A DNA stretch of 45,284 bases from a virus. Every line of letters begins with the position of its first letter. Within the stretch, counting starts at the first letter, position 1. The DNA is taken from the IMG/VR virus record IMGVR_UViG_3300012208_000005, positions 1-45,284 of that record; one strand, written 5' to 3'. The position numbers and the translations under genes were made by a program. The notes below the pieces were generated by a model. It ran no database searches, was not told the origin of the DNA, and saw only the letters and a program-made list of their open reading frames with translations. Below, in pieces: positions 822 to 41,526 of this stretch.

Positions 822-865
822 TCCCCCCTAAGTATTGAACTGGATGAAGAAGAGGAGATGACCTA

Positions 866-2464: not shown

Positions 2465-2468
2465 GAAC

Positions 2469-2612: not shown

Positions 2613-2617
2613 CTCAC

Positions 2618-4992: not shown

Positions 4993-5001
4993 GAGAGCGT
5001 C

Positions 5002-6857: not shown

Positions 6858-6864
6858 ATTATTG

Positions 6865-6912: not shown

Positions 6913-6913
6913 C

Positions 6914-7183
6914 ATGCCCGAGATGCGTAATCGCAAAGATGGAGCCGGTCCGGTTAAGTCGCTTCACCAGTCTCTTCACGGTGGAGGGCACCTCAAACCG
7001 CATAAAGTTGAACGCTTGGACGAAGCGATCGATAAGAGCGGGGGGAAGAGTTCAAAGGGTACCCACTTGTCCATGAGCGGTGGTAAGGACGAAGCTACAG
7101 ATATGCACATGCCTTCTGTTAAGCAGTACAAGAAGGTTGCGAAGGCCGGTAAGAACATGCCGAAACGAAAGAAGAACAAATAA
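6914..7183 (+). CDS. Small basic Lys/His/Gly-rich protein
   Basis: An 89-residue strongly basic protein ending in 'MPKRKKNK', rich in Lys, Gly, His and Ser and probably disordered. Translation depends on an RBS embedded in the preceding terminator stem. It is followed after one base by a second basic protein. Position between terminase and portal suggests a virion or DNA-associated role; this is inference only. Confidence 0.6.
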   Translation: MPEMRNRKDGAGPVKSLHQSLHGGGHLKPHKVERLDEAIDKSGGKSSKGTHLSMSGGKDEATDMHMPSVKQYKKVAKAGKNMPKRKKNK

Positions 7184-7184
7184 G

Positions 7185-7376
7185 ATGGCACGTAGCAAAG
7201 GAGCTAGTGCTTCTAAGAAGGCAGCTATCAAAGAATCCGGCAAACCCACGGAAAAAGGGAAGAGTATAGGTCTGAAAGTTGCTCTGATGAACTCTTCTGA
7301 GGAAGAATCCGCGAAGAAAAAGGGTAAATTCCCGGCCAAAAAGCATGCTAAAGGTAAAAAAGAGAAGAAAAAATGA
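7185..7376 (+). CDS. Very basic Lys-rich protein
   Basis: A 63-residue protein, about one third Lys, from 'MARSKGASASKKAA' to a C-terminal run of Lys, Gly and Glu ending 'KKEKKK'. It resembles histone-tail-like or internal head DNA-binding peptides in composition only. A longer in-frame start at 7080 would lie wholly inside the previous gene, so 7185 is preferred. It overlaps the next gene by 4 bases (ATGA). Confidence 0.55.
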   Translation: MARSKGASASKKAAIKESGKPTEKGKSIGLKVALMNSSEEESAKKKGKFPAKKHAKGKKEKKK

Positions 7377-8422
7377 GAAACCATTGGAAATGGTCCACAC
7401 CCTGGCTTATCTGGGCATTGTTAGCGGGCTCTTCCGTTTCAGCAGCCCAATTTGTCAATGTTCCGTATGGACTTTCCGATGATTTCTTTCCTAAGAACCT
7501 TCCACCTAACCAGTGCTTGCATACAGACGCCGATTCAAAGATCACTTCAACCGGATCGGACTGCGGAACGGGCTCAGGGGGCGTTACAAGCGTCTCTGGG
7601 ACGGCCAACCAGATAACGGTTGTTAATGGTACGACTACGCCGGTCATTTCTATTCCGAGTGATCCACAAGTGTCAGGGAACCTGACAACGAATGATATAA
7701 CAGTCACTGATACGACGACAAACCAGTGCCTTGGGACCAATGGAAGTAATCGGATTACTACTGCGTCTCATTGTGTCACTTCAATCACCGGCACGACCAA
7801 CCAAATAATAGCAAACAGCGGGGGAGCAGTCTTTACTCTGTCCTTACCGTTTACTTTTAAAGTACCCGGGACATTTGAATCCTCATCCAACGCCACATTT
7901 GACACGGCTACCGGAACCTCATGCGCAGGATTTGACTCCACTAAGAAGTTAGTGTCAAACCAAAATTGCGTAACCGCCATTACCGGCACGACTCCGATCA
8001 CGGTATCTACTCCCTCCCCTGGTGTATATGACGTTGAGATAACTAGCCCCATCCCGGTTGCCTACGGCGGTACAGGCACCGCGTCCGCTACGGCGGGCAA
8101 CTGTGTGGATGTTGGAGTTGGTGGGCATTATAACACAGACATTTGTAACCAATGGACGCTTGCAGGATTTATCATTCCTTCTGTTGGAGGGACCGTAACT
8201 CTGACAGGTGGCGGGACAGAGCAAAGACTGTTCTCTATGCTTACTTTCACCCCTATCTTTGTCACTGATGGTACGCATGCCATTCAGGGATACGCTAACG
8301 CGGCCTCATCTGGGGCGGGACCTGATACTGTCGTTCTCCATATGAATAAGATCATCGCTGGATCTGTTGGGGATAGCATGGCAGGGGGCGCTCACATGAT
8401 GATCGGAAATGAGGACTTCTAA
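7373..8422 (+). CDS. Exported fibre-like protein with C-x14-C modules
   Basis: A 349-residue protein. It starts with a textbook Sec signal: Arg/His/Lys n-region, hydrophobic 'TPWLIWALLAGSSVS', and AxA-type site 'VSAAQ' near residue 25. The mature part is Thr/Gly/Ser-rich beta-repeat sequence of tail-fibre type ('VTSVSGTANQITV', 'IPVAYGGTGTASA'). Cysteine pairs recur: two spaced C-x14-C ('CLGTNGSNRITTASHC', 'CAGFDSTKKLVSNQNC'), one C-x15-C and one C-x13-C. These could be disulfide-closed hairpins if the protein reaches the periplasm. It overlaps the next gene by one base (TAATG), and that gene has the same architecture. The location between terminase and portal is unusual for fibres. A virion fibre versus an exported surface protein cannot be separated from sequence. 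Confidence 0.7.
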   Translation: MRNHWKWSTPWLIWALLAGSSVSAAQFVNVPYGLSDDFFPKNLPPNQCLHTDADSKITSTGSDCGTGSGGVTSVSGTANQITVVNGTTTPVISIPSDPQVSGNLTTNDITVTDTTTNQCLGTNGSNRITTASHCVTSITGTTNQIIANSGGAVFTLSLPFTFKVPGTFESSSNATFDTATGTSCAGFDSTKKLVSNQNCVTAITGTTPITVSTPSPGVYDVEITSPIPVAYGGTGTASATAGNCVDVGVGGHYNTDICNQWTLAGFIIPSVGGTVTLTGGGTEQRLFSMLTFTPIFVTDGTHAIQGYANAASSGAGPDTVVLHMNKIIAGSVGDSMAGGAHMMIGNEDF

Positions 8423-11334: not shown

Positions 11335-11349
11335 TACACTAAGGATGTT

Positions 11350-13284
11350 ATGAAAAAGAATCAATACTATGAGGGGCAGTTGCAGCCGGAGAGCCCGGCT
11401 CAACTGCCTATGCCTAAGGTAGGACAAGAAGTTTGGGATTCATTAGGTGAGACAGCCATGAATCTCATCGACATCAACAAAGGTAATCGAGCTTCTCTCG
11501 ATGCGGAATTAGATCTTTGGAACGCCATGTATGAGATGCGGACAGAAGAACGCAGTTCCCCTTGGCCCAATGCTGCTAACATCAATATCCCGTTAATCCC
11601 CTCAGAACTTGAAGAGCTTGTATCACGCATTGCTGGATCGGCCATTCTCCCCCGCCCTTTAGGGGTAAGAGGTAATGACCCCAATTCAGCTCAGTATAGC
11701 CACACTGTTGAGCAGTTCTACAATGGCGAGTACCAACGATACAATTGGGAGGATAAGTTTCATACTGGTATCCATCTCACGGCGAGAGACGGCACCTCGG
11801 TCATGGAAATTCTGTGGGACCTCTCTACTACAGAGAGAAACTTCATTGTGGATTCTGTAGATGACCAGGGGCAGCCAATCAAGATTCGGCAGAAGCAGAA
11901 ATTCGTAGACTATAATGCCCCCAAGTTAGACGCTGTGGAGCTTAGAGACTTCCTTTTGATTCCTGCATTCGCTACATCTATAGAGGAGGCAGATGCGGTT
12001 TGTCGCAAGACTTACATGAGTGAGAAGTCGCTTAAGAAGTTGGTCAATTCTGGAATTTTAGATAAGGATGCTGTGGAATCTGCATTGTCTTATGTCTCTA
12101 CGGGGCAAGGGGAGCTAGGTTATGATGACCAGGGACATTCGACGTACAACATTGGTGGGCTCGTTGATGTTGTGGATGTAGCTGTATCTCCACCTGACGG
12201 TATAACGATGTCACGCGGACCCCTGGAGGTGTGGCGTATTCATACTAGCCAATACGATCTAGATAATGACGGCATCCCGGAGGAGAACATCCTTTGGGTG
12301 CACGATAGGTCGCGAAAACTCTTAGGTTTTGCCCCGTTCGAGTATCTTCAGGGTAGACCGTTCAAGGCTCTTTCAATGTTTCCTCGTCCCAATCGGTTCT
12401 ATGGGTTTTCTACCCCCCAGCGTTTAAAGGGCTTGCAAGAGGAGTTAAACGCGCAGCATAATGGTCGTCTAGACCTGATGGATTGGATACTGAATCCGAC
12501 TATTGTAAAAGATAAGATGGTTCGCCTTCGTGAAGAGGACATGGCCGTAGGGCCCGGCACCATGATTGACGCTAAGCCTGGGGATATTTCGTTTTTAACA
12601 GCCCCAGAGGTGCCCCAATCTTCTTGGCAGGAAGAGCAAGCTATCTCTATGTATGCCAAGCAGATCATGGGGGCCCCACAGACGGCGGGTATCCCTACAC
12701 AAGGTGGCAGCGGAGGAGGCGGGGGTAACCGCCAGTCTGCTAGGCAAGCTCAGCAGAATTCCGCCATTCAGGGCATGCAGACTAACATGGTCATCAAGCG
12801 AGTTCGTACGTGGATGTTAGAAATTTTCCAATACATCCACGGTCTGTACATTCAATACGGCAAAGATCAATTGAAGTCCGTGGATCAGACTCCAGGTGGA
12901 GCACAAAGGGTCGAGATACCTAAGGAAGTTCTTGCCTTGGATTACACCCTGACCATTGCGGGTATGGGAGGACCTCTTGATAAGGAGTCGCGTAGGAACG
13001 ACCTTATGATGATGGCCTCGTTTCTTATGCAACTCCCGTTAGTACAGGGTAATCTTGCAAGGATCTGGTCTATTGCTGCCGAAGTTCTCTCTACCTATGA
13101 CATTCCTGAGATAACTCGCTTCTTAGGGACAATGGAAGAGGCCCAACAACAGCAGCAACAACAAGCAGAAGCACAACAACAACAGATGCAGATGCAGATG
13201 GCTATGGCGGCGATAAATCATGGAAAAGCGGAAACTTCTCCCGGAAGCGCGGATTCAGCGGGAGCACCTCCACACAACCCTTAG
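11350..13284 (+). CDS. Portal protein
   Basis: A 644-residue podovirus-type portal, forming the dodecameric ring at the capsid vertex through which terminase packages DNA and to which the adaptor binds. Supporting segments are 'RSSPWPNAANINIPLI' near residue 75 (typical of this portal group), 'WVHDRSRKLLGF', 'RFYGFSTPQRLKGLQ', and a helical C-terminal part. The last 50 residues are Gln/Met-rich (a run of seven Gln, then QMQMQM), consistent with a coiled barrel-like extension. The RBS is AAGGA, seven bases before the ATG. The 3' end overlaps the next ORF by 65 bases if that ORF starts at 13220. Confidence 0.88.
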   Translation: MKKNQYYEGQLQPESPAQLPMPKVGQEVWDSLGETAMNLIDINKGNRASLDAELDLWNAMYEMRTEERSSPWPNAANINIPLIPSELEELVSRIAGSAILPRPLGVRGNDPNSAQYSHTVEQFYNGEYQRYNWEDKFHTGIHLTARDGTSVMEILWDLSTTERNFIVDSVDDQGQPIKIRQKQKFVDYNAPKLDAVELRDFLLIPAFATSIEEADAVCRKTYMSEKSLKKLVNSGILDKDAVESALSYVSTGQGELGYDDQGHSTYNIGGLVDVVDVAVSPPDGITMSRGPLEVWRIHTSQYDLDNDGIPEENILWVHDRSRKLLGFAPFEYLQGRPFKALSMFPRPNRFYGFSTPQRLKGLQEELNAQHNGRLDLMDWILNPTIVKDKMVRLREEDMAVGPGTMIDAKPGDISFLTAPEVPQSSWQEEQAISMYAKQIMGAPQTAGIPTQGGSGGGGGNRQSARQAQQNSAIQGMQTNMVIKRVRTWMLEIFQYIHGLYIQYGKDQLKSVDQTPGGAQRVEIPKEVLALDYTLTIAGMGGPLDKESRRNDLMMMASFLMQLPLVQGNLARIWSIAAEVLSTYDIPEITRFLGTMEEAQQQQQQQAEAQQQQMQMQMAMAAINHGKAETSPGSADSAGAPPHNP

Positions 13285-13510
13285 TACGGAAATCTTTCGA
13301 AATGTCTTTAGCTTATCCTTCTCTCCCATGCTCAAGGAGATGAAAAGAAGGATTTTGCAAGATGAACACATAGCTGAAGACTATCGACGAGGCCTTGTTA
13401 TAGCGTATAATGAAATGTATAGAGGATTTATTGCAGTTTACGAAAACTGCGGCCTCGAAGTACCACTTTGGCTTGAGAAAGAGTTTGACAGAGACGATGG
13501 AAGAGAATGA
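13220..13510 (+). CDS. Hypothetical protein between portal and scaffold
   Basis: A 96-residue ORF. The better part is the C-terminal 60 residues ('MLKEMKRRILQDEHIAEDYR' onward), which are helical and charged. An alternative ATG at 13328 would remove the 65-base overlap with the portal; neither start has a convincing RBS. It overlaps the scaffold start by 14 bases. Function unknown, probably head-related by context. Confidence 0.5.
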   Translation: MEKRKLLPEARIQREHLHTTLSTEIFRNVFSLSFSPMLKEMKRRILQDEHIAEDYRRGLVIAYNEMYRGFIAVYENCGLEVPLWLEKEFDRDDGRE

Positions 13511-14252
13511 CCCTATCGTGGACATCTTAGAGGAAGACGAAGAAGATTCGACTATCTCTTATGTTCCCGACTCACCAGAAACAGAAGATGAGCCTGTAAA
13601 ACCGCCGCTTCCCAATCCTGAAATGATCGACCTGCGCCATCAACTTGAGGAGCAGCAGCGCGAGATCCAACGTCTCCTGTCGTTTTCGGCGCAGCCTGCC
13701 CCGACTTATATTCCGCAGCAGCCCGCCTCGACGACAGTGAATCAACGAGAGGTCTTCAAGCAGCAATTGCAAAATGCCTACCTCGCTGATCCAGCCGAAG
13801 CGCTTCTATCGTTGTATGAGAAGGCGAAGCAGGACGCCGTGGCCGAGGCACAAAGGAACATGGTACCAGTCGCCGGGGCAACTACTCGGTTTGCTATCGA
13901 CCAGTTCCGACGCTCTGCCAACCTTTTGAAGGATGAAGAGGAAGAGTTTGAAGGGTTAATTGCTCAAATCAGCGCGCAAGACATGGCCCAAGCCAATCCC
14001 GATATGCTTGGAAAACAGCTTACTCTCTTGAAACAGGCGGCTAAAGGGGCTGCTCTGGAGAAGCGACAAGCTTCCCCCCAACCCAGAGTTCCTCTGTATA
14101 GCTCTGGAAGTTCCTCAAGTTCTGGGGCACGTAAGCCCGTTCAGGTAAAACTTACGAAAACGCAAAAGTCCTACTATGCTCAAGCGACCGAAGATATGGG
14201 GTTAACCCCAGCGGAAGCCATTCAACTGATTAAGTCGGAGGGTATTAGCTAA
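13497..14252 (+). CDS. Scaffolding-like head protein
   Basis: A 251-residue protein. It has an acidic N-terminus ('DILEEDEEDST'), a Gln/Pro-rich linker, a helical centre with coiled-coil character ('LRHQLEEQQREIQRLL' and 'KLTKTQKSYYAQATEDMGL' near the end), and a basic C-terminal region. Acidic N-terminus plus helix-rich body, between portal and major capsid genes, is the usual scaffold signature. Start 13497 is chosen because the longer ORF start at 13410 would lie inside the upstream gene. No protease domain is visible. Confidence 0.65.
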   Translation: MEENDPIVDILEEDEEDSTISYVPDSPETEDEPVKPPLPNPEMIDLRHQLEEQQREIQRLLSFSAQPAPTYIPQQPASTTVNQREVFKQQLQNAYLADPAEALLSLYEKAKQDAVAEAQRNMVPVAGATTRFAIDQFRRSANLLKDEEEEFEGLIAQISAQDMAQANPDMLGKQLTLLKQAAKGAALEKRQASPQPRVPLYSSGSSSSSGARKPVQVKLTKTQKSYYAQATEDMGLTPAEAIQLIKSEGIS

Positions 14253-14791
14253 TGGCTAGACCTAGTAAAGATTTTTTACCCGCACCAACCCCACGAGAAG
14301 TCACGACACCTATTCCGAGTGTGAGAGTTCCTCTTCCCAATGGTCGATTTGCTAACTTAAATGAAATAATCGACCAGAATTACCGCCCTGGGGAACATAA
14401 GTCCATCTTTGCAGATCCTTCCCAGTTTCTGATCTCTCCTCGTGCGGATTGCATGTATGCCTGGGTTGCCTATGGAAAGTCTGCGGATAACTATCTTAGA
14501 GGCAAAGTTCGCTCCCAAGCGTATCGTCCGGTTCTTCTCTCAGAGATGCGGGAGGATAGGGACCTCTCCATTCACACTCATAAAATTGCTGGCCTTGAAT
14601 TTGTTGCTTGTATGGATGTTGTGCTTGTGGAAGTAAGCCCGGAAGCTGTGTATCGCCTGTACAATTGGAGGGAGCAGTCCGCCATAATGAAGACGGTCAA
14701 TAATGCAGCTTTCCAAGCGTTCCAAAACACAATTTCAAATATGTCGGGTGGGCTTGCTCAAGCTAGTTTTGAAGTGAGAGAAGTAGGCTAG
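14252..14791 (+). CDS. Hypothetical head-module protein
   Basis: A 179-residue protein starting with a TAATG overlap of the scaffold stop. Segments 'PLPNGRFANLNEIIDQNYRP' and 'SPRADCMYAWVAYGKSADNY' suggest a folded virion or assembly protein, but I recognise no family. It is the last gene before a terminator, so it closes the portal-scaffold transcription unit. Confidence 0.6.
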   Translation: MARPSKDFLPAPTPREVTTPIPSVRVPLPNGRFANLNEIIDQNYRPGEHKSIFADPSQFLISPRADCMYAWVAYGKSADNYLRGKVRSQAYRPVLLSEMREDRDLSIHTHKIAGLEFVACMDVVLVEVSPEAVYRLYNWREQSAIMKTVNNAAFQAFQNTISNMSGGLAQASFEVREVG

Positions 14792-14808
14792 AACTTCCTA
14801 GTTACAAC

Positions 14809-14843
14809 GCCTCCATTCTTATGAATGGGGGCTGTTTGTTTTT
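14809..14843 (+). terminator. Intrinsic terminator
   Basis: GCCTCCATTC (14809-14818), loop TTAT, GAATGGGGGC (14823-14832) with one G-T pair, then TGTTTGTTTTT. It separates the portal/scaffold genes from the capsid genes and is followed directly by a promoter. Confidence 0.75.
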
Positions 14844-14844
14844 G

Positions 14845-14873
14845 TTGACTTGATTGTACTAAGCGAGTACTCT
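14845..14873 (+). promoter_or_regulatory. Candidate promoter for capsid operon
   Basis: TTGACT (14845-14850), a 17-bp spacer, then TACTCT (14868-14873). The -35 is a 5/6 match; the -10 keeps only T, A and the final T. An alternative -10, TAAGAT (14879-14884), matches the -10 proposed before 16552 but sits 28 bp from TTGACT. Placement right after a terminator supports a promoter here. Confidence 0.5.
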
Positions 14874-14883
14874 TAAGTTAAGA
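14856..14883. promoter_or_regulatory. Two operator-like palindromes over the capsid promoter
   Basis: GTACT-AAGCG-AGTAC (14856-14870) and TCTTAA-G-TTAAGA (14871-14883) are two adjacent perfect inverted repeats. They cover the spacer, the -10 region and the likely start site of the promoter, as a repressor or activator site would. The binding protein is unknown; the HTH protein at 866 is one candidate. Confidence 0.4.
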
Positions 14884-14907
14884 TACTTTCGTCCTGTGAG
14901 ATGTTGA

Positions 14908-15489
14908 ATGTCCGTTACGTATACTGCGATGGTTCCTATAGCGGTTAGTCCCGCGGGCGGTACCGGCGCGATCAATCCAGTCAATATGACTCCGACCTCC
15001 CCTTGTGCCGAAGGGGACATTGTTGTTCTGTCGGGCTCCGGGATTGCTCCCGCGGCTGCGAACGTGGCAAACGGTATTGTGGGTATTGCTCAGCATGATT
15101 CTTCATTGAATTATGGGGGCCAAAGTCCTACCTCTACGTTCAATCCGAATCTGCTTCTTGGTATCTCAAATGTTGGTACCTTGATGCCTGCATCTCCTGG
15201 TCAGACGATTGTCGCCAAGCTTGGTGCTCCTACCTTGGTGGAAATCAATCTTACGGTTTCTACGGGCTGGATCTCCGGGGGAACTCAACAGGCGCATCTT
15301 GGAACCCCCGTTGGTATCGCGATCGACGGCACAACCGGCTTCTATGTGGCGGACCCGACCGCTTCAAACATCGTTGCTACCATCTCTGATAAAATCAATG
15401 GACCGTTCGCGGTTCCGGGTGGTGATGTAGGAAACCTTGGAACTCGCATCCTCATTGAGTTCCTTCCCGCTGTCTTAGCTGTAAGTTAA
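14908..15489 (+). CDS. Putative head decoration/stabilisation protein
   Basis: A 193-residue Gly/Ala/Pro/Thr-rich beta protein directly upstream of the major capsid gene. Phrases such as 'PCAEGDIVVLSGSG', 'ANGIVGIAQHDSS' and 'AHLGTPVGIAIDG' are of the kind seen in capsid decoration proteins of the lambda gpD or trimeric beta-tulip type. The assignment rests on position and composition. The RBS is weak. Confidence 0.55.
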   Translation: MSVTYTAMVPIAVSPAGGTGAINPVNMTPTSPCAEGDIVVLSGSGIAPAAANVANGIVGIAQHDSSLNYGGQSPTSTFNPNLLLGISNVGTLMPASPGQTIVAKLGAPTLVEINLTVSTGWISGGTQQAHLGTPVGIAIDGTTGFYVADPTASNIVATISDKINGPFAVPGGDVGNLGTRILIEFLPAVLAVS

Positions 15490-15502
15490 GGAATAAAAGA
15501 AA

Positions 15503-16450
15503 ATGGCATCGTTTATCAATACCAGAACTTACTTCCAGGCTGCGACGACCCAGCTTAAGAAGATCTACATGAACTCCGGTTCGATGGAACCGCTCCGTTA
15601 TCCCTCCATATTCAATGAATACAAGGGTGATGCGGACCGTAGTTACATGCAGATGCTCTCTCTTGTCGGCTTCGGAACTCTTTTCGAGAAGACTGAAGGG
15701 GCGACGGCTGCGGTGGACTATTCGAAGGAAGGACTTCGTTCGTCGTTTGCATACGTGTCGTATGCCCTCAAGTATGCGGTCACTAAAGAGATGAGCCGAG
15801 AAGACGCGAAAAAGATCATTCCGAAGCTTCCTGGGCAGCTACGCTACTCTAGCGACCAGACAAAAGAGTTTCTCTTTTGGAACACCTTTAATCTCGCCTT
15901 CCTCTCTGCGGCAGCCCTTGCTGACGGACAGCCTTTATGCTCAAACTCGCATCCTCTTCAGGGCTCCTCGGCGAGACCCGGGATCAACAGTTACTCCAAT
16001 CTTCTTGGAGCGGTCTCTCTCACCACCGACACCTTGCAGCAGGCGTACATCCTTATGGAAGATGTCCCTACTGACAGAGGCTTAGTGTCTTCTTATACGC
16101 CGAAGCAGCTAATTTTCCCCTTAGGTCTTCAACAAGCGGCTACCGAGACGCTCAGTTCTCTCTACTATCCGACATCCAACGAAAATCGAGTCAACGTTGT
16201 TGCGGGCTCCATCAGCCCTATGCCAATCAAGTACCTCACTGCCACGGCAGGCGGGCCATTCCCGTGGTTTGTTCTTGCCGGAAAAGGTGATCCTGGGACG
16301 GACTGCCACACTGTCTTCGCTGATGTGAAGTGGGATGAACAGCGTTCATGGGTTGATGACCAAACGATGTCTCTTTTTCACGAGACCGAGTTTCGTGCAG
16401 TCTGGGGCGCAATAAATGGCCGCGGTGTCGTTGGGTCGATGGGCGGTTAA
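15503..16450 (+). CDS. Major capsid protein
   Basis: A 315-residue protein, the expected size for an HK97-fold shell subunit. The segment 'ADGQPLCSNSHPLQG' (about 140-154) matches a hallmark loop of Mu gpT-like and related capsid proteins (D-G-x-P-L-F-S-x-x-H-P-L). A helical N-terminal region ('TQLKKIYMNSGSM') and a C-terminal 'WDEQRSWVDDQTMSLFHETE' also fit. RBS AAGGA lies about 11 bases before the ATG. There is no separate maturation protease in the head module. A strong terminator follows. Confidence 0.88.
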   Translation: MASFINTRTYFQAATTQLKKIYMNSGSMEPLRYPSIFNEYKGDADRSYMQMLSLVGFGTLFEKTEGATAAVDYSKEGLRSSFAYVSYALKYAVTKEMSREDAKKIIPKLPGQLRYSSDQTKEFLFWNTFNLAFLSAAALADGQPLCSNSHPLQGSSARPGINSYSNLLGAVSLTTDTLQQAYILMEDVPTDRGLVSSYTPKQLIFPLGLQQAATETLSSLYYPTSNENRVNVVAGSISPMPIKYLTATAGGPFPWFVLAGKGDPGTDCHTVFADVKWDEQRSWVDDQTMSLFHETEFRAVWGAINGRGVVGSMGG

Positions 16451-16471
16451 TTCAACCTTCGCTACCTAACC

Positions 16472-16501
16472 AAAAGACAGTCTTAATAGACTGTCTTTTC
16501 T
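16472..16501 (+). terminator. Intrinsic terminator after capsid gene
   Basis: AAAAGACAGTC (16472-16482), a 6-base loop, and GACTGTCTTTT (16489-16499) form a perfect 11-bp stem ending in a T run. The A-rich 5' arm and T-rich 3' arm would also work in reverse. The 3' arm overlaps the -35 element of the next promoter. Confidence 0.85.
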
Positions 16502-16515
16502 TATTGTGTTAAGAT
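16487..16515 (+). promoter_or_regulatory. Candidate promoter embedded in terminator
   Basis: TAGACT (16487-16492, 4/6), a 17-bp spacer, then TAAGAT (16510-16515, 4/6). The predicted start is near 16522, giving a 30-base leader to the ATG at 16552. The -35 lies inside the terminator's loop and 3' arm, so the same bases would stop one transcript and start another. Confidence 0.5.
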
Positions 16516-16551
16516 AATGTTAGTATGTGATACGCCTTGAAAGGGCCGCTA

Positions 16552-17445
16552 ATGCCGACTAAAGTAATACAAGCCAAGTCTAGGATGCCTTCTACTCTTC
16601 AGTACAACTCATGGGTTGCTATGGCCTTTGAGTCTGCTACTTTGACGGCAAGTGAAACGTCAACGGCAGTCGTCGCGCGTTTCCCGTTGGGATTGAACAC
16701 TAAGATCACCCATATCTCGTATGTGGTGAGCGGCACCCCAGCAGGTAACCTTGCCTTGAACATTGTCTCGAATTCTGGATCGTATGAAGGTGCAGGAGCA
16801 GCGAGCTCTAAAGTAACTCTTACTCTTGGGGGCACTTATGTAGCCGGAGATACCATCACCTACGTCATAGGTGGGGTTTCTACTACGTTCATGGTGACTT
16901 CGAGGAATGCAGGGAATCTTCAACTGACTGCTGCCAGCATTGCATCAGCGTTCAATCGAATCTCTCCGTTGAATGTCACCTACAGAGCCTCTTCTCTTGG
17001 CCCTGTTGTTGTCTTCCAAACTCTTCTGTATGGGACGACTACTCCGACTTTCACCGCTTCTAAGGTTAGTACCTCTGGAACGGTCGCTACCTCAGGTGGG
17101 ACGTTCACTGCTGGAGTGGCTGGAGCAAATCCTGCCGCGCCCGTTGGAGACTCTACCAAGATTGGCCTTGTTCCTTCTCCGACTGCGGCTCCGTTAACGG
17201 CGCTCTTCCCCTGCAACATCGCGATTCCTCTTGTGGGGGAATCAGAAGTGACGGGAACGATCTACGCTGTCGAGAATTTCGATGCGATCTTCCCTTCAGT
17301 GTCGGAGTTGACTCTTAGGTTGGTCACTGATGGTTCTGGTGCAGGGACGATCAAGGTTGTGATGTATGGGGTCCCTGTGGATAACCACCCGCAACAGCCT
17401 GCTGAAGCGGCTTCTTACTTCCATCTTAACCAAACGATCCTCTAG
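16552..17445 (+). CDS. Virion-associated hypothetical protein
   Basis: A 297-residue Thr/Ser/Gly/Ala/Val-rich beta protein. Its centre has fibre-like strands ('LTLGGTYVAGDTITYVIGGV') and its end has 'GAGTIKVVMYGVPV', a jelly-roll-like strand pattern. It is the first gene after the capsid terminator and promoter. A TTG at 16537 could extend it by five codons, but ATG 16552 is preferred. Head-tail joining or decoration is possible; no family is recognised. Confidence 0.6.
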   Translation: MPTKVIQAKSRMPSTLQYNSWVAMAFESATLTASETSTAVVARFPLGLNTKITHISYVVSGTPAGNLALNIVSNSGSYEGAGAASSKVTLTLGGTYVAGDTITYVIGGVSTTFMVTSRNAGNLQLTAASIASAFNRISPLNVTYRASSLGPVVVFQTLLYGTTTPTFTASKVSTSGTVATSGGTFTAGVAGANPAAPVGDSTKIGLVPSPTAAPLTALFPCNIAIPLVGESEVTGTIYAVENFDAIFPSVSELTLRLVTDGSGAGTIKVVMYGVPVDNHPQQPAEAASYFHLNQTIL

Positions 17446-31206: not shown

Positions 31207-32492
31207 AAACGCCTATAAAGGATACGACCATTACTCAGTCATACGCTTGTGAGCTTATTAAAGAACATGGCAGTGCGAACGCAGCCGCATTCTACCTTTC
31301 TGAAAATTTTGAGATCCTCTCCTCTCGATATGAGGGGAAGATCCTCTCCTATGCCCGTATACGGGACATCCTCAATCGGTTAGTGAACATGGGGATTTCA
31401 GGTAGAGAGGATACGTCAAGAGAGTCTCGCATTGAGAAGCTTCTTCATAACCATAACGTGCCTCTGGAATCTATAAACCGTATTGATAATGTGAAGCTCG
31501 GGATATGGGGCGTCCATGCCAAGGACGCGGAGGGCAACATACAGACCAGTTACCTCGATAAAACGCAGATCACGATTGTACCCGAAGCTCCAGTCTTCCC
31601 AGTAGTAAACTGTGCAGAGCCTAGGATCATCCAGTACGACCGCGGGCCAGTAATAGCGAAGAGAGTCGATCAATACGTCATCATTTCCGATACACAAATC
31701 GGCTTCCTCCAGGACCCTGAAACGAAGGCTACCGTACCCATCCATGATCCCAAAGCTATCGCGGTGGCAAAGCAGATCACCGCTGATATAGGACCATCGA
31801 AGCTTGCTTGGATAGGTGACCTCATGGACTGGCCCTTCTTATCACGTTGGACTCAACACGATGAATATGATGCCGTTAATGAGTCCATCCAAGCAGCGTA
31901 CGATCACCTATGTGAGTTTATATCGGCATCTGGAAGACGGCTCCAAGAGAAGATTATCATAGGAGGTAATCATGATATACGACCTGAACGATTTTTACTG
32001 GAGAACAACAAAAAGGCTATGCGTGTTCGTAGAGCTTCAGATACTTCTAGGTGGCCCGTATTCTCGCAGCCTTTTCTACTCCGCTACGATGATCTCGGAA
32101 TACACTATCCCGGGCATTATCCCGGAGACCACTTTTATCTTCTCAATGAATTAGTACTAACCCATGCGCCACCTAAGGCCAAGGAGTTCCAGGCGTCGGT
32201 GATACATGGTCATACCCATCACATCACCCGCTCAACGTCAGTGCAACACTCTTCCCAGGGGCGTAAGACGTACTACAATTACGACATTGGGTGCCTCTGC
32301 CAGACAGGAGAAAACCCGAACCCTTACTCTCTAGTAAGAACCCGGGTTCCCTCAGATCGTGGTCGTACTGATTGGTCACAAGGCATCGCGGTAGTGAATG
32401 TGATTGACGGGGAGTTCTTCTCTGTCGATCAAATAGCCATCAACGATGGCCGGGCTATCTATCAGGGGCAGGTTTATCGAGTAGGGTCTTAG
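31203..32492 (+). CDS. Calcineurin-like metallophosphoesterase
   Basis: A 429-residue protein. Residues about 155-345 carry the metallophosphoesterase motifs: Asp163 ('ISDTQIG'), 'WIGDLMDW' with Asp206, 'GGNHDI' with Asn256-His257, and 'VIHGHTHH' with His335 and His337. These bind two metal ions. The first 150 residues are an extra helical domain with a possible HTH ('YACELIKEHGSANAAAFYLS'). It could be an SbcD/Mre11-like nuclease or a nucleotide phosphoesterase; no SbcC partner is present. It overlaps the ligase gene by 4 bases and ends in a hairpin loop at the convergent junction. Confidence 0.82.
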   Translation: MKTPIKDTTITQSYACELIKEHGSANAAAFYLSENFEILSSRYEGKILSYARIRDILNRLVNMGISGREDTSRESRIEKLLHNHNVPLESINRIDNVKLGIWGVHAKDAEGNIQTSYLDKTQITIVPEAPVFPVVNCAEPRIIQYDRGPVIAKRVDQYVIISDTQIGFLQDPETKATVPIHDPKAIAVAKQITADIGPSKLAWIGDLMDWPFLSRWTQHDEYDAVNESIQAAYDHLCEFISASGRRLQEKIIIGGNHDIRPERFLLENNKKAMRVRRASDTSRWPVFSQPFLLRYDDLGIHYPGHYPGDHFYLLNELVLTHAPPKAKEFQASVIHGHTHHITRSTSVQHSSQGRKTYYNYDIGCLCQTGENPNPYSLVRTRVPSDRGRTDWSQGIAVVNVIDGEFFSVDQIAINDGRAIYQGQVYRVGS

Positions 32493-32793
32493 CAAAGACC
32501 CTTCCTACGAACTTTTGGGCTTCGCTAACACTACAAACCGTGGTAGCGAAGCCTCCTTCTTTCTTGACCTGCTCTGCGAATAGGATCTGAGAATCCGTTC
32601 TCCCCAAGCTTGCCTTAGCCCATGCCTCAGGAGTTTTGACCTCTATCGCAACAAAGTACCCGTTCACAACTCCTAAGATATCAGACACTCCGGCGCGTTG
32701 GAAGGGAGACGCCCCGGCTCTCCAGAAAAAGCCCAGGCCCTCCTTTCGGAGGGCCTTCATAATGTTGTCCTTAATGCTAGATTCAGTCTTCAT
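32455..32793 (-). CDS. VRR-NUC domain nuclease
   Basis: A 112-residue stand-alone VRR-NUC (PD-(D/E)xK) nuclease. 'RAGVSDILGVVNGYFVAIEVKTP' region: Asp38, then Glu51-x-Lys53 twelve residues on, matches the family spacing, with 'WRAGASPFQRAG' before it. Phage members often act on branched or flap DNA during replication and recombination. It is the last gene of the minus operon and overlaps the 3' end of the convergent metallophosphoesterase gene by 38 bases. Confidence 0.88.
   Translation of the reverse strand: MKTESSIKDNIMKALRKEGLGFFWRAGASPFQRAGVSDILGVVNGYFVAIEVKTPEAWAKASLGRTDSQILFAEQVKKEGGFATTVCSVSEAQKFVGRVFAKTLLDKPAPDR
32483..32502. terminator. Hairpin at convergent gene junction
   Basis: AGGGTCTT (32483-32490), loop AGCA, AAGACCCT (32495-32502): a perfect 8-bp inverted repeat. 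The plus-strand stop TAG (32490-32492) lies at the loop. No T-run follows on either side, so this would be a weak, possibly bidirectional or factor-assisted terminator. It lies within the end of the VRR-NUC gene. Confidence 0.45.
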
Positions 32794-33011: not shown

Positions 33012-33506
33012 TTAAAGTCCAAACTCCGAAAGATCGGTGGAAGAGGGAGTAGATTGAACAAGTCCCAGGATCTTGAATTTAGCCCAGAGTTTAGGAGAGC
33101 CGTCCTCATTTGTAGCCCCTTTTGAATCTTTCTCCAGGAACTTCTTGAGCCTAATTTTCTTGTTTAGGAAAAGCTTTGCATAAAGTTTCTTTAACTCGAC
33201 TGCTGTAAATTGCCTAGGCACCTTGGAAAGCTCTCCAATAGCCGTAGCATCACTTCGGAACTCTGAAATTCCGTTATTACCCTTAGCTCCTTTCTTCGTG
33301 ATGAAGTTCACCAGGTAGTACTTCTTCAGCACGTCTTCCCCAGAAGACTCCCCTGATATGATCTCAAAGTTAGCTTCAAGAACTGGGTCTCCTTTTTGGG
33401 TCGCTCCAAGATTCACGTTGGTTAGCCTGGCTTCATAAATACCCTCTGGTAATGATGCCTTAAAGCTCATAATTTCATCAAGATTATATGTAATTTCTTC
33501 TGACAT
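33012..33506 (-). CDS. SSB-like single-strand DNA-binding protein (DUF669 type)
   Basis: A 164-residue protein. The start ATG at 33506 lies just after the ATPase stop; a longer ORF would begin inside that gene. 'LPEGIYEARLTNVNLGATQK' followed by 'GDPVLEANFEIISGE' and 'KKYYLVNF' is the beta pattern of phage OB-fold/DUF669 SSB-like proteins usually found next to Sak4-type ATPases. It would coat single-stranded DNA during replication or annealing. The C-terminus ends 'STDLSEFGL', a weakly acidic tip. Confidence 0.7.
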   Translation of the reverse strand: MSEEITYNLDEIMSFKASLPEGIYEARLTNVNLGATQKGDPVLEANFEIISGESSGEDVLKKYYLVNFITKKGAKGNNGISEFRSDATAIGELSKVPRQFTAVELKKLYAKLFLNKKIRLKKFLEKDSKGATNEDGSPKLWAKFKILGLVQSTPSSTDLSEFGL

Positions 33507-33508
33507 TT

Positions 33509-34252
33509 CTACACCTTTTCTCTTAAAGAACTTGTAACAAAGGTAGACTTGCCCACTCCTGGAGGGCCGTAAACAGTCAACCAAGTTGGTACGAACCCCA
33601 ACAACTTCCATAAACGTGGAAGTGTTGGATTCGTTAGCGCTTTAGGGAGTTTCTCCTCATATGGAGCTTTAGCCGTATATTCCTCCGTAACACGTAATTG
33701 AAGAATTCTACTCCCAACCGCCACAACCTCCTCATTCTGGTCATTAAAGATGGGCTCATTTATTCGAGCCATCCTAAAGACGTGACTGCTGGAACCCATT
33801 AAGCTCCCCAACAACGCAGGATTTAAGTCAGGGGATCTTTTTTTTGTAGGAGGGACGGTTGTCTCATCAATACGTACAGCTTCGTGCACAGTAGTAATAA
33901 TCTTTGCGCCTTCCCCTCCTCTGCTCAAATTCTTCAATTGACGTATAATCATCCCTTCTGGTCCTGTATATAGTCCATAGCCGGGTTTTTCCTTGAAGAA
34001 GCGTTCCTTCTTGCCCCACATGGTTTCTGTAGGATCAGTTCCAAGGTTATGATCTCCTCTCCAAGTGGCTGCAAGCATGTCAATTGTATCAACAATGACT
34101 ATATCTTTAGGGGTTACTTGTGACACAATACTGGTGACATGCTTATCAAAGTCCATATAACGTACAACTGGGAATCGTACCAACTCTTTATGCCCTAAGA
34201 CATCTATGATAGCGTCCGCACCATTCCCATCGGTCGAATAAAGGTATATCAT
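33509..34252 (-). CDS. Sak4-like RecA-fold ATPase, circularly permuted
   Basis: A 247-residue ATPase next to SSB-like and Cas4-like genes, the usual setting of Sak4-type recombinases. The body has Walker B 'KDIVIVDTIDML' (Asp55), 'GAKIITTVHEAVR' (sensor-like strand at 115-127), 'PALLGSLMGSSSHVFRM' and 'RILQLRVTEEYTAKAP'. The P-loop 'VYGPPGVGKSTFV' is at residues 227-239, only 8 residues from the C-terminus (bases 33542-33568). In Sak4/RecA proteins the P-loop is N-terminal. Here the N-terminus starts where the chain after the P-loop helix would ('MIYLYSTDGNGADAI'). An in-frame stop eight codons upstream of the ATG rules out a missed N-terminal P-loop. The gene therefore appears circularly permuted yet complete. 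It would drive homologous recombination or annealing with the SSB. Confidence 0.75.
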   Translation of the reverse strand: MIYLYSTDGNGADAIIDVLGHKELVRFPVVRYMDFDKHVTSIVSQVTPKDIVIVDTIDMLAATWRGDHNLGTDPTETMWGKKERFFKEKPGYGLYTGPEGMIIRQLKNLSRGGEGAKIITTVHEAVRIDETTVPPTKKRSPDLNPALLGSLMGSSSHVFRMARINEPIFNDQNEEVVAVGSRILQLRVTEEYTAKAPYEEKLPKALTNPTLPRLWKLLGFVPTWLTVYGPPGVGKSTFVTSSLREKV

Positions 34253-35052
34253 GTTAGCCCTTCCGGTATTTCAATTGGCTCTCGTTTAGTCGATATGCCC
34301 CGCAGCATATCCTCTGTAAGGTCATCCTGTAATAGGTTAACTTTACAAATCTCCTTAACCGAGCAAGAAGGGCAGGCATCATACCCTCCTCCTTTTAAGT
34401 TAGTACGCGTGAATCTTTTTGATTTACTTGTCTCTAATAACCTCTGAAGTTCCCAAGTAGTTTCATCTGCTATCTTTGTGGCCTCATACAAGCTTATAAC
34501 TAAAGGCATGGTCTGATAGCACTCCTGGGGGTCCCATACATCTCCTTTCTTATTATGGGGGATATAGGGAGGAGTACGTCTGACATACACATGCTCAAAC
34601 CGTACTTTGGAGGTCTTAAAGTGCTTCATTGCACAAACAATGTAGAGTCGGGCTTGGAAGTCTAAATCTGCATCCAAACTAGGGAGGCGAGCAAATGTTT
34701 TCCAATCTCGTACCACAAGAGACTCCATATCGCGATACACCAGGTCGAAAGTACAACGAACGTACACTCCATCCAAAAATTGAACATATATTGGCTCCTC
34801 TACCAACACCACATTCTTAGGAAACTCATTCTCTCGTAGCCAGGCACTAGCTACATCTCTCATCGGAGAATCTTCATCCGGTAACTGACCATACGTTGCA
34901 TAATGGGCCATGATAGAGTGAAACGCAGTTCCCTCCGCCATTGCTTCATTCTCTTTCACTCCATCAAGAAGCATTTCATATTGTATCTCATACTTCTTAC
35001 CACAACGAAGAAAGGTCTGAAGAGCACTCATACTGATTACAATGGGAGTCAT
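34249..35052 (-). CDS. Cas4/RecB-like Fe-S PD-(D/E)xK nuclease
   Basis: A 267-residue exonuclease of the Cas4/AddB type. Cys17 ('FLRCGKKYE') plus Cys227, Cys230 and Cys236 ('CPSCSVKEIC') form the expected 4Fe-4S set. The nuclease core has His45 ('GTAFHSIM'), Asp103 ('CTFDLVY'), Asp116-x-Lys118 ('VVRDWKTF') and Gln133 ('DFQARLY'). It would resect DNA ends to yield single strands for the neighbouring ATPase and SSB. It is coupled to the ATPase gene by an ATGA overlap. Confidence 0.88.
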   Translation of the reverse strand: MTPIVISMSALQTFLRCGKKYEIQYEMLLDGVKENEAMAEGTAFHSIMAHYATYGQLPDEDSPMRDVASAWLRENEFPKNVVLVEEPIYVQFLDGVYVRCTFDLVYRDMESLVVRDWKTFARLPSLDADLDFQARLYIVCAMKHFKTSKVRFEHVYVRRTPPYIPHNKKGDVWDPQECYQTMPLVISLYEATKIADETTWELQRLLETSKSKRFTRTNLKGGGYDACPSCSVKEICKVNLLQDDLTEDMLRGISTKREPIEIPEGLT

Positions 35053-35339
35053 AGCCTAGCTGCCCAGGACATAGCTACTGCAGCCACCTGAATGAGTTCT
35101 TCTCGTAGGCGGCTATTATCTACAGGGAACTGCTGCAGCTCCTGAGAAACCTCCCCTACTTCCTCTACAAGTATGGCGAGACGGGTGAGGTCCAAACATC
35201 CTTCATCATACGGAATATGGTCGAACGACCCTGAAGCTCTCAGAGCTGTCTGACGCCAGAGTTCGATATCGAGAGCGTCTCGACACTCGTTCAAGTCTTT
35301 TTGATAGTTTTCGTATTTGTATTCTTTTTCATTCATCAT
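35049..35339 (-). CDS. MazG-like nucleotide pyrophosphohydrolase
   Basis: A 96-residue all-alpha protein. 'LAILVEEVGEVSQELQQF' supplies the EExxE metal motif of MazG-type NTP pyrophosphohydrolases, and 'LREELIQVAAVAMSWAA' is the second conserved helix. It would hydrolyse dNTPs or NTPs to monophosphates, adjusting nucleotide pools or (p)ppGpp signalling. It overlaps the polymerase end by 11 bases and the nuclease start by 4. Confidence 0.78.
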   Translation of the reverse strand: MMNEKEYKYENYQKDLNECRDALDIELWRQTALRASGSFDHIPYDEGCLDLTRLAILVEEVGEVSQELQQFPVDNSRLREELIQVAAVAMSWAARL

Positions 35340-36999
35340 TTCCTGGGCTCACCTTTGTCTCTATTGCTAGAGGGATGTCGAAGTCAATGTCAAACTCGTT
35401 TTTCAAAAATTCAGGAGGGTGACGAGTCATTGCATACTCTATGCTTCTAAGACTCCCCTCGACATCTTCAGGGTTGCATTCAAATAGTAAAGAGTCGTGA
35501 ACAAAACCTACGGGAGCTAGGCCGATCCGTTCGCATTCAGCCATAGCGATGTACGCAATGTGTGCTGCCAGGTTCTGCACCTTTACGTTGACCGCCTGCC
35601 GTAGTGCTTCCAGCTTCAATTTATCCGGGAGAAGGGTAAAATCCCCGAAGTGTCGTATGTGGCCGGTTGGGCAGGCTGCTTGTCCTGTACGTATGATCTC
35701 TTCCTTAACCTCGGCATACCAAGGGCGGAAGTCCGGGTAGATGAGATGAAACGCCTGGAATAGCATATGCCATTCGGTCATCGACTTGAAGATACCCTGC
35801 TTACGAGCATTCTGGTCTAGAGTAAAGGCGTTACCCAAGTAAAGAAGACCGAACTGAACCTTAGCCTGAGACCGCTCTTCCTTTGTGACCTCTGACTCTA
35901 GTTTGTCATAGTACCGAGAAGCGAAGAATTTATGCGGGTCCCATCGGGAGTCGTCTTGATACCGGGTTAAGATGACCCGCTCTCTGGCAAACCAAGCGGC
36001 GACTCGAAACTCAATGGCTGAAAAGTCAGCTTCTATAAGCACCTTACCAGGTTGGGCCCCAAAGAAGTCTTTGTACTGCTTAGGTAGGTTCTGCACGTTC
36101 GTGTTACGGGCCGACGACCTCCCGGTTAGCGTCCGCAATATGGTATATGTAGGGTGGACTCTCCCCCCTGACTGCACAATGGACTCATAAGGGGCCACGT
36201 ATGTACCCAGGGTCTTTGTGGCCTGGCGGTATGCTACAAGGTTTTTTGCAAAGGGGTGTGTGATCTCGTTAAGGACCGCAACGCTAGTACACCTCTTACC
36301 GGAGTCTGTTAACGGTAGGGCTACTCCTTTGGAATGAAGGTACTCTCCAACTTGCTTGGGAGAATTGGGGTTAAACTCTGGTCCGGCATCTTCACAGAGA
36401 CTTCGAAGTGAGGAATCTCTAGCTCGTTCCGCTGCTTCACGCTCTCTGGCGACGGCTTTTGAATCAATGAAGATGCCTCGTTCGGACATGCTATAGAGGG
36501 ACTTCCAGGAGGGGGATAGTATGCGTCGAAGGGTACGCATACGATCACCAAGATTCCGTCGCAAGACTTGGTACACCATATACGTGTATTTAGCATCGCG
36601 AGCAGCATATTCTGCATCTTCGAGAGCGTTTGGGTTAAATTCATTCCAATCTTTTCCCTTCCAGGCAGGTACTCCTAAGTACTTGACTGCACAAGATTCT
36701 AACCCAAGAGCTTGGGTTTCATCATCAAGATAGGCCATTGCCATTGCATCGTCACTGGCTGGCATCTCAATTCCCCAATTCTTCATCTTGGGTTCATCAA
36801 ATGCCCACCCATTCCAAGTGACTAGTTGCGACCCACTGTCACGTAATGCACATGCCAAGTCGCGTATGTTCCGCTCGCCAATCGCAACAAAGGCGTCTTT
36901 GCCGTTTGAGGATGACAGCATCGTCGGGTAATCCGTAATTTGTCCATTTTCTGCCGTTTCTATATCCCAAGCCCAATAGTTAGCTGTCGGTAGGTGCAT
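35329..36999 (-). CDS. Family A DNA polymerase with 3'-5' exonuclease
   Basis: A 556-residue replicative polymerase. ATG 36999 has a GGAGG seven bases upstream; the ORF could extend 21 codons into the dCMP deaminase gene but has no such RBS. Exonuclease motifs are 'WDIETAENG' (Asp12, Glu14), 'WNGWAFDEPK' (Asn63, Asp68) and 'YAARDAKYT' (Asp135). Polymerase motif A is 'IEADFSAIEFRVAAW' (Asp325), B is 'RSQAKVQFGLLYLG' (Arg376, Lys380, Phe383, Tyr387) and C is 'FVHDSLLFE' (Asp502). Two oddities: motif B has one residue fewer between Lys and Phe than E. coli Pol I or T7, and motif C is HDS not HDE. Proofreading should be active. No 5' nuclease domain is present. Confidence 0.92.
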   Translation of the reverse strand: MHLPTANYWAWDIETAENGQITDYPTMLSSSNGKDAFVAIGERNIRDLACALRDSGSQLVTWNGWAFDEPKMKNWGIEMPASDDAMAMAYLDDETQALGLESCAVKYLGVPAWKGKDWNEFNPNALEDAEYAARDAKYTYMVYQVLRRNLGDRMRTLRRILSPSWKSLYSMSERGIFIDSKAVAREREAAERARDSSLRSLCEDAGPEFNPNSPKQVGEYLHSKGVALPLTDSGKRCTSVAVLNEITHPFAKNLVAYRQATKTLGTYVAPYESIVQSGGRVHPTYTILRTLTGRSSARNTNVQNLPKQYKDFFGAQPGKVLIEADFSAIEFRVAAWFARERVILTRYQDDSRWDPHKFFASRYYDKLESEVTKEERSQAKVQFGLLYLGNAFTLDQNARKQGIFKSMTEWHMLFQAFHLIYPDFRPWYAEVKEEIIRTGQAACPTGHIRHFGDFTLLPDKLKLEALRQAVNVKVQNLAAHIAYIAMAECERIGLAPVGFVHDSLLFECNPEDVEGSLRSIEYAMTRHPPEFLKNEFDIDFDIPLAIETKVSPGNDE

Positions 37000-37378
37000 A
37001 CGGATGCCTCCACTTAATGTTTGTAACTCTTTTCCCGCGAGCTCTCCTAACACAAGAGTCACAAGGCTCGTGAGTCACGTATAAAGTTGCTTGGTTCCCC
37101 CACATTAGTGTATACGGGTTAAAGAGTTTAAGGGCATTAGTTTCTGCATGAATAGACCTACTACAATGATCCTTAACAATACGGCATCCCACATCAATAC
37201 AATGCTTGTACCCCGAAGGAGCCCCATTATATCCTGTAAAGATAATCTTATTGCGTATCACTAAAAGTGCCCCGACTTTTAATCTTAGACAAGTAGATCT
37301 CTGAGCAACCTTCTCGGCAATATCTAAAAAGTATTCATCCCAAGAAGGGCGTTGGTTCTCTGAGTATTCTGTAGTCAT
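36980..37378 (-). CDS. dCMP deaminase
   Basis: A 132-residue zinc deaminase converting dCMP to dUMP, the substrate for the ThyX encoded upstream. His77-Ala-Glu79 ('SIHAETNAL') and 'EPCDSC' (Cys106, Cys109) form the zinc and catalytic site. 'FTGYNGAPSG' is the family's substrate loop. Start 37378 has GGAGGAG about 10 bases upstream; a longer ORF to 37411 would overlap the preceding gene. The C-terminal 25 residues are short and basic compared with typical family members. Confidence 0.9.
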   Translation of the reverse strand: MTTEYSENQRPSWDEYFLDIAEKVAQRSTCLRLKVGALLVIRNKIIFTGYNGAPSGYKHCIDVGCRIVKDHCSRSIHAETNALKLFNPYTLMWGNQATLYVTHEPCDSCVRRARGKRVTNIKWRHPYAPTDS

Positions 37379-40302: not shown

Positions 40303-40967
40303 TATTTACCTCCTTTAAAGTAGTAGTAGAATCGTTCTATAACCGTCCTAGTTATTCCTTCTCGTTGAATATCATCTAACGTAAAGTTTACAATCCCGAA
40401 TTGTTCCTCTAGTTTGAACAGTCTCAATGCGACCGCTAATCCGCTATCTATGCCTATATCACTTTGGTGCGCGTCACCACAGAGTACCATTCGAGATTCC
40501 ATTCCAAGCCTTGTCATAACCATCTCCATTTGTTTCGGAGTAACATTTTGGGCTTCATCGACAATAATGAATTTGTTGGTAAAGGTACGTCCTCTCATAA
40601 GCTCCAAGGGTACACATTCTATCGGACTATTAGGACCCTCTAAGAGTGCTTGGATGTTAGGCACATTGAGGTCGATGAGCACTTCCATTACCGGCTCCAT
40701 GAATGGAGCAATCTTTTCGTCAATAGTCCCTGGAAGGAACCCGAAGTTGCGGCCCGCAGGCACCAATGGCCTAGATACAATAATTCCCTCGATCTGTCCC
40801 TTGAGAAGCATATCGAATGCTACACAGACAGAGACGAAGGTCTTCCCTGTCCCTGCAGGGCCTGTAGCCATCGTTATGCGCTTCGCAGCTATTGTTTGTG
40901 CGAGACTTATCTGAGTACGGGTACGAGGTTCCCAGGTAAACTTTTCAGGCTTGTAATGCCGAACCAT
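40302..40967 (-). CDS. PhoH-like ATPase
   Basis: A 221-residue PhoH-family P-loop ATPase. Walker A is 'MATGPAGTGKTFVSV' (about 34-48, Lys42), Walker B 'KFIIVDEAQNVTP', then 'MVLCGDAHQSDI' and 'DDIQREGITRTVIERF', all PhoH hallmarks. The family may act in RNA metabolism as a helicase or nuclease partner, and is very common in phages. ATG 40967 has AAGG about 8 bases upstream and is preferred over an in-frame TTG at 40973. It overlaps the UDG gene by 23 bases. Confidence 0.92.
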   Translation of the reverse strand: MVRHYKPEKFTWEPRTRTQISLAQTIAAKRITMATGPAGTGKTFVSVCVAFDMLLKGQIEGIIVSRPLVPAGRNFGFLPGTIDEKIAPFMEPVMEVLIDLNVPNIQALLEGPNSPIECVPLELMRGRTFTNKFIIVDEAQNVTPKQMEMVMTRLGMESRMVLCGDAHQSDIGIDSGLAVALRLFKLEEQFGIVNFTLDDIQREGITRTVIERFYYYFKGGK

Positions 40968-41526
40968 AGTCAACCTTCCAGTAGGTGAATTGCACTTTTG
41001 CTGGAGTCGTTTGCCCTTTTGTGGCGTTTCGAATGTCTGAGACGATAACCTTGTAATAGGTTGGGACTTTTACTAAGTCTTCTATTCCGTAGGTTGGATG
41101 TGTATTATACATCATCCCAAAGTCTTTGTGAAGGGGGTAGACCTTTCCTCTATGTTTCTTTATGCCACTCTTCTTCGTGAGAGATACAAGCGCTGCGTTC
41201 CCCATTGATATTATGATGGTCGGTTGGAGCTGAGCAATGTCCTCTTGTAGGTATGGGCGGCAGGGACCAATACTATGGGTTATATTAGGAAAGAAGGTAG
41301 GAGGAGCACATCGAACACAAGATGTAATCGTTGCGTCATCATATAAAACACCACTATCTTTGAGAACTTTACGAAGCAAGGCCCCTTTTTTCCCAGTCCC
41401 ATATTCCCCTCTAAGGTCATCTTCTCCCGTGGGATAGGATGTTACCACTAGGATCTTACCCTGCATATTAGTTCTCATGCAGTTAGTAAGGGCCCCTTCT
41501 CCTAGGGGGCATTTATGACATATCAT
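40945..41526 (-). CDS. Uracil-DNA glycosylase family protein (Fe-S type)
   Basis: A 193-residue family 4/5-like UDG. N-terminal 'CHKCPLGEGALTNC' provides Cys ligands, 'SYPTGEDDLRGEYGTGKKG' is the glycosylase motif region, and 'ITSCVRCAPP' with a later 'GPCRPYL' resembles the Fe-S segment. 'MGNAALVSL' and 'YNTHPTYG' (motif near the active His) follow. It would remove uracil from DNA or, in phages, sometimes serve in DNA initiation. It is overlapped 14 bases by the upstream gene. Confidence 0.82.
   Translation of the reverse strand: MICHKCPLGEGALTNCMRTNMQGKILVVTSYPTGEDDLRGEYGTGKKGALLRKVLKDSGVLYDDATITSCVRCAPPTFFPNITHSIGPCRPYLQEDIAQLQPTIIISMGNAALVSLTKKSGIKKHRGKVYPLHKDFGMMYNTHPTYGIEDLVKVPTYYKVIVSDIRNATKGQTTPAKVQFTYWKVDYGSALQA

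Follow-up and report, generated by a model that had tools for sequence, protein, structure and literature searches.

The closest described counterparts of the gene treated here are the canonical Sak4 recombinases (PHROG 124, PF13479) of phages such as HK620, PA73, 52A, Lebethron and PMBT14, in which a P-loop near the N-terminus, preceded by an extension before strand β1, is followed by β2, the Walker B strand and a C-terminal helix. HK620 Sak4 is ATP-dependent, and its cognate single-stranded DNA-binding protein (SSB) stimulates it (PMC5928155); 52A Sak4 forms filaments (PMC11846896). Within the wider superfamily, Rad51, DMC1, RadA, RadB and RecA likewise place the P-loop before Walker B. Naturally circularly permuted P-loop proteins have been described among GTPases, namely YjeQ/RsgA, YqeH, YlqF/YawG and cpRAS (PMC2430557, PMC2741578). 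Here we analyze a 45,284-nucleotide stretch of viral DNA (IMG/VR record IMGVR_UViG_3300012208_000005, positions 1 to 45,284; the window), in which a 247-residue Sak4-type ATPase encoded at 33509–34252 on the minus strand begins at β2 and ends just past the P-loop helix. Judged from its sequence and those of its relatives, this phage recombinase is very probably a real and conserved case of circular permutation, one that appears not to have been described before.

The permuted form shares with canonical Sak4 the ATPase core, Walker B, the position of the lysine that acts in trans, the C-terminal NPT helix and the gene order exonuclease–Sak4–SSB. It has the RecA-type ATPase core in common with Rad51, DMC1, RadA, RadB and RecA, and one permuted member gives a weak match to the RadB model TIGR02237, but the motif order differs from that of all five. 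With the permuted GTPases it shares membership of the P-loop NTPases and a motif order rotated in nature, although those proteins are cut to read G4-G5-G1-G2-G3 or G3-G4-G5-G1-G2, are not RecA-fold DNA enzymes and reflect a separate event; no permuted GTPase family is among the Pfam and NCBIfam matches listed for the permuted proteins.

Swapped segments in the window protein

The features of the gene are given below; A8 denotes an alignment of ten of the eleven permuted proteins that we identified.

33509–34252, minus strand: gene for the putative permuted Sak4-type RecA-fold ATPase, 247 amino acids (open reading frame with ATG start, matches to PHROG 124 and PF13479, swapped order)
34220–34252, minus strand: new N-terminus, residues 1–11 (MIYLYSTDGNG), corresponding to β2 (hhalign aligns column 2 of the permuted profile with canonical column 49)
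34085–34102, minus strand: Walker B strand IVIVDT, residues 51–56 (Asp55 invariant in 10/10 proteins of A8)
33668–33670, minus strand: Lys195, invariant in A8 and aligned by sequence with the KIR-motif lysine of canonical Sak4
33569–33631, minus strand: old C-terminal helix NPTLPRLWKLLG, continuing directly into β1 (VPTWLTVY)
33542–33568, minus strand: Walker A P-loop GPPGVGKST, residues 229–237 (Tyr228, Gly229, Gly232, Gly234 and Lys235 invariant in A8)

Only ten residues separate the P-loop from the stop codon. The gene contains one P-loop and one Walker B aspartate, and no second Walker A motif was found in or beside it in any frame. PHROG 124 matches residues 32–214 on profile positions 91–250 (E 6e-16), and PF13479 (AAA_24) matches residues 25–197 on profile positions 40–194 of 195 (E 9e-9); since the latter match begins at position 40, the P-loop part of the profile is absent from the front of the protein. 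An in-frame stop lies six codons 5′ of the ATG (open frame 33509–34270), and the ATG itself overlaps the stop codon of the upstream exonuclease gene as ATGA (34249–34252), so that no N-terminal P-loop can have been overlooked in this frame. The initial annotation had described a protein with no N-terminal P-loop and with GPPGVGKST at residues 229–237 of 247, had dismissed a mis-called start on the grounds of the upstream stop and the ATGA coupling, and had taken the last 27 residues to be the moved piece; all of these statements hold, the moved piece being about residues 221–247.

Its central proposal, that the protein is a circularly permuted Sak4/RecA-like ATPase, is supported by profile comparisons and by ten relatives. 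PHROG 124 and AAA_24 are each matched by 10/10 proteins of A8, and a hidden Markov model built from ten canonical Sak4 sequences finds two domains in swapped order in every one of them, so that none follows the usual order of P-loop, β2, Walker B and C-terminal helix. With hhalign, permuted columns 2–216 align with canonical columns 49–253 (probability 97.1, E 4.7e-11) and columns 227–244 with canonical columns 28–45 (probability 93.8, E 1.8e-7), and no further segment is significant; both segments match one family, swapped and without duplication. Aligning each segment on its own with the canonical profile answers, at the level of sequence, the re-permutation check suggested in the initial annotation. 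As a control, three other canonical Sak4 proteins gave just one alignment to the canonical profile, collinear throughout (4–277 on 1–271, E 2.9e-19), whereas the permuted profile again gave the swap against the same three, which are its nearest canonical relatives. The cut point falls between α1 and β2, at canonical profile columns 45 and 49, and the N-terminus of the window protein aligns with the β2 sequence LDIGERGTDS of the nearest canonical proteins. In canonical Sak4, β2 comes after the P-loop helix. From [RK]213 to the P-loop there are 15 residues in all ten A8 proteins, a constancy that stems partly from the search pattern described below, though not from it alone, because one relative (L060) was found without it.

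Relatives, selection and competing explanations

A DNA pattern encoding N-P-T-x-x-[RK] with a P-loop 10–20 residues further on matched once in the window and in none of 100 shuffles, and gave two true matches in IMG/VR, the contigs L049 and L057. Alignment of these with the window protein led to L060, whose protein is 50% identical to that of the window, by way of N-terminal peptide patterns, which make no assumption of a C-terminal P-loop. A second pattern of fixed spacing yielded L066, L084, L092, L094, L106, L126 and L131. Most results of both DNA-pattern scans were false matches (out-of-frame, terminase-like and DnaB-like ATPases). Including the window there are thus eleven IMG/VR records of 30–55 kb, each with one full-length Sak4 match, and the question raised by the initial annotation of whether related phages share the permuted order is answered by the ten further contigs, all of which do, at 29–51% identity where aligned in full. 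In L066 (2251–3075) no ATG, GTG or TTG lies near the expected β2 start (KPIIYLLNADRG), and the start codon here may be a rarer one, or the frame may contain a sequencing error. A divergent permuted member, L092/L156 (record G007, 13077–13820), has glutamine in place of the histidine of an otherwise conserved x-H-E motif and stops about nine residues past the P-loop lysine.

Outside these records the permuted form was not encountered. The window protein gave no tblastn match at E 0.01 in 50,697 phage records and none at E 1 in 72,556 plasmids, no relative emerged from a pattern scan of 84,980 genomes, nor when single proteins were searched against IMG/VR, genome contigs, phages and plasmids, and a scan of genome contigs with the permuted alignment found no match. 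The nearest described protein by tblastn is gp49 of Microbacterium phage IndiRoo, which aligns over residues 51–214 only, at 26% identity; tblastn with two of the relatives gave no strong match among described phages. An alignment of the cores of nine proteins proved too diverse for scanning, and a closer alignment retrieved only a canonical IndiRoo-like Sak4. IMG/VR searches with the window polymerase and ribonucleotide reductase (RNR) returned no relatives; the best RNR match was CRP-403, which has no annotated Sak4. The sole match in an IMG/VR terminase search was a second assembly of the same phage (L004, sample 3300012210), 99.96% identical over 16.8 kb (window 1–16854). It starts two bases or fewer from the window start, pointing to either a natural end of the genome or an assembly break common to both contigs.

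L049 and L057 share 90% of their residues in this protein. The nonsynonymous (dN) and synonymous (dS) divergences are 0.049 and 1.52 over the whole gene and 0.069 and 1.28 over the C-terminal P-loop part, so in this one gene pair both segments are under strong purifying selection (dN/dS about 0.03–0.05). The residues invariant in A8 include Asp55 of Walker B, Tyr228, Gly229, Gly232, Gly234, Lys235 and Lys195. The last of these aligns with Lys229 of 52A Sak4 once a 20-residue tag in the chain numbering is allowed for. In the cryo-electron microscopy structure of 52A Sak4 (PDB 8RC5), Lys229, Arg231 and His232 of the KIR motif contact ATPγS from the neighboring protomer (PMC11846896). An invariant Lys195 would fit a filament in which protomers share the ATP site.

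These data bear on three other explanations of the gene. As long as a single contig was known and close relatives were hard to find, an assembly or sequencing artefact could have rearranged one gene. The same order in ten other contigs, each with an intact open reading frame, excludes the assembly rearrangement that the initial annotation had named as fatal to its proposal, and together with purifying selection in the pair tested it makes an artefact of any kind scarcely conceivable. We also regard it as very improbable that the N-terminus MIYLYSTDGNGAD is the decayed P-loop of an ordinary Sak4 and that the C-terminus acquired a P-loop segment of unrelated origin. A global MAFFT alignment does set the N-terminal DGNGAD on the canonical P-loop, but it requires deletion of α1 and β2, whereas the profile alignments put residue 2 on β2 (column 49) and residues 227–244 on the canonical P-loop. 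Moreover, the nearest canonical β2 (LDI..GTDS) is shared with permuted N-termini (LDAD..GTDS), and other permuted N-termini (LDADGRG, LNADRGG, LDGDLSG) do not resemble a P-loop. The MAFFT placement, contradicted by hhalign and by the β2 motif, was rejected. Finally, some flanking loops are strongly divergent and function is predicted from sequence, which would suit a Sak4 derivative that is decaying or lacks catalytic activity, such as an adaptor for the SSB or the nuclease. We give this little credence, as G-x-x-G-x-G-K-[ST], the Walker B aspartate and Lys195 are kept by all aligned members, dN/dS is about 0.03 between L049 and L057, and the protein is the sole full-length Sak4 match in each record.

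Predicted structure and a model for activity

The gene product is most likely a functional Sak4-type single-strand annealing recombinase with a circularly permuted chain. We propose that the chain starts at β2 and that the β1–P-loop–α1 unit, attached behind the old C-terminal helix, folds back so that β1 would become the central strand of the sheet next to Walker B and rebuild the usual ATP site. The old C-terminal helix would then be covalently linked to β1, replacing the free segment that precedes β1 in canonical Sak4. Protomers could bind single-stranded DNA carrying the neighboring SSB and form a filament of the RecA type, in which each ATP would sit between one protomer's P-loop and Lys195 of its neighbor, and they would anneal ends resected by the neighboring Cas4-type exonuclease. 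Homology, the swapped order, conservation, selection in one gene pair and the gene neighborhood are established by the data presented here; we infer the three-dimensional packing, ATP use, annealing and filament formation in this model, as well as the route of origin discussed below. The initial annotation had placed the new termini by the nucleotide site. That remark is probably wrong, since the cut lies in the α1–β2 loop, which in P-loop folds occupies the far end of the sheet relative to the P-loop, and the new termini are probably away from the nucleotide.

Structure prediction agrees with a RecA-like core: the cores of the AlphaFold2 models are RecA-like, with low TM-scores of about 0.3–0.5, and the best Foldseek matches include DMC1, RecA and RadA for the window model in the PDB and phage Sak4/RecA-like proteins for the L106 model in BFVD. 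The only solved Sak4 structure found was 8RC5. Several points nevertheless weigh against a permuted and active recombinase. The models, built from the ten-sequence alignment, are of low confidence (overall predicted local distance difference test score, pLDDT, 61.5 for the window protein and 65.8 for L106), and the P-loop segment has a pLDDT of 26–47 in both, so its packing beside Walker B, which the initial annotation had made its structural test, is a proposal. The patterns that retrieved nine of the ten relatives assume a C-terminal P-loop, and for seven of them the fixed 15-residue spacing as well, so the figures for frequency and spacing are biased, L060 being free of both assumptions. 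ATP-dependent annealing is predicted from the Sak4 family, with sequence as its basis.

The unplaced P-loop segment also admits a different geometry, in which the arm acts in trans: the C-terminal hairpin would dock into the neighboring protomer as a domain swap, and polymerization would proceed by arm exchange instead of each monomer closing on itself. AlphaFold leaves the arm unplaced, the link into β1 is constant in length, and ATP sites of RecA-family proteins lie between protomers (PMC11846896). A shallow alignment, however, predicts the same low confidence, and with few residues between the old C-terminal helix and β1 a closed monomer fits equally well. We consider arm exchange unlikely, and the same holds for its corollary, that the catalytic strand would be exchanged between protomers and assembly of the ATP site would itself be the polymerization step.

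Gene neighborhood, origin and significance

The recombinase gene lies in a conserved replication and recombination cluster, of which the following window genes are part.

35329–37062, minus strand: family A DNA polymerase (PF00476), at the upstream end of the cluster
34249–35052, minus strand: Cas4-like PD-(D/E)XK exonuclease, upstream and ATGA-coupled (PF12705, E 1.5e-19; PHROG 69, exonuclease)
33012–33506, minus strand: SSB-like gene (DUF669), downstream, starting 2 bases past the recombinase stop (PHROG 7778 and 378, single-strand DNA binding protein; PF05037)
32455–32793, minus strand: Hjc/VRR-NUC-like endonuclease (PHROG 93)

Neighboring genes in the eleven records were recognized by blastp with the proteins of the window. 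The exonuclease is directly upstream of the permuted sak4 in 11/11 phages, the Hjc-like nuclease is present in ten (the exception is L060, whose contig is too short to reach it), and the polymerase is near the permuted gene in eight of the 11 stretches examined. The SSB-like protein was recognized in at least 6/11, a lower bound because SSB proteins are short and divergent. Flanking by an exonuclease and an SSB-like protein is the usual Sak4 neighborhood, as in the canonical cases of Weizmannia phage Youna2, Lebethron and PMBT14. The window DNA polymerase is split into the exonuclease–polymerase part at 35329–37062 and a separate gene of 193 amino acids at 40945–41526 (both minus strand), the latter 39% identical to residues 19–199 of the single-chain, 795-residue polymerase of L060; the two parts are about 4 kb apart, with genes for PhoH, RNR, ThyX and dCMP deaminase between them.

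By polymerase, the nearest described phages are MW202455 (Caudoviricetes) and Pseudomonas phages Lebethron and PMBT14, which have the order polymerase–exonuclease–Sak4 with a canonical Sak4. The C-terminal DPTYDKLVAVIKG of these Sak4 proteins resembles the permuted NPTLPKLWKxLG, and their β2 LDIGERGTDS resembles the permuted N-termini LDADxxGTDS. A maximum-likelihood tree of the core placed nine permuted and ten canonical proteins on either side of one branch (support 100/99), with two permuted rows dropped by the script and a small canonical sample. The sequences make a single origin of the permuted order likely, though not proven. To our knowledge, all other RecA-family orders are P-loop first, so the permuted order is derived. 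The simplest route, and a likely one, would begin with a tandem in-frame duplication of sak4; a new start in copy one and a new stop in copy two would then have removed the outer ends, all of this once, in an ancestor of the permuted phage lineage. No intermediate was seen.

The literature searched (open-licence papers) held nothing that joins Sak4 with circular permutation, an absence that is not proof, and nothing relevant on permuted RecA, Rad51 or RecA-like proteins, nor any permuted member of the superfamily. To present knowledge, as judged by this search, no natural circular permutation had been reported in the RecA/Rad51/RadA recombinase superfamily before the window gene and its relatives; the permuted P-loop NTPases otherwise known to us are mainly GTPases. 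Routine annotation serves such proteins poorly, as AAA_24 covers only profile positions 40–194 and tblastn found none in the 50,697 phage records. If arm exchange were true, a recombinase filament would be built by strand swapping, a mode of assembly that we do not know for RecA/Rad51 proteins. RecA-family filaments rely on the shared ATP site and on contacts from segments that precede β1 near the N-terminus. A natural enzyme that would lack a free segment before β1 offers a system, already in existence, for testing which contacts such a filament requires.
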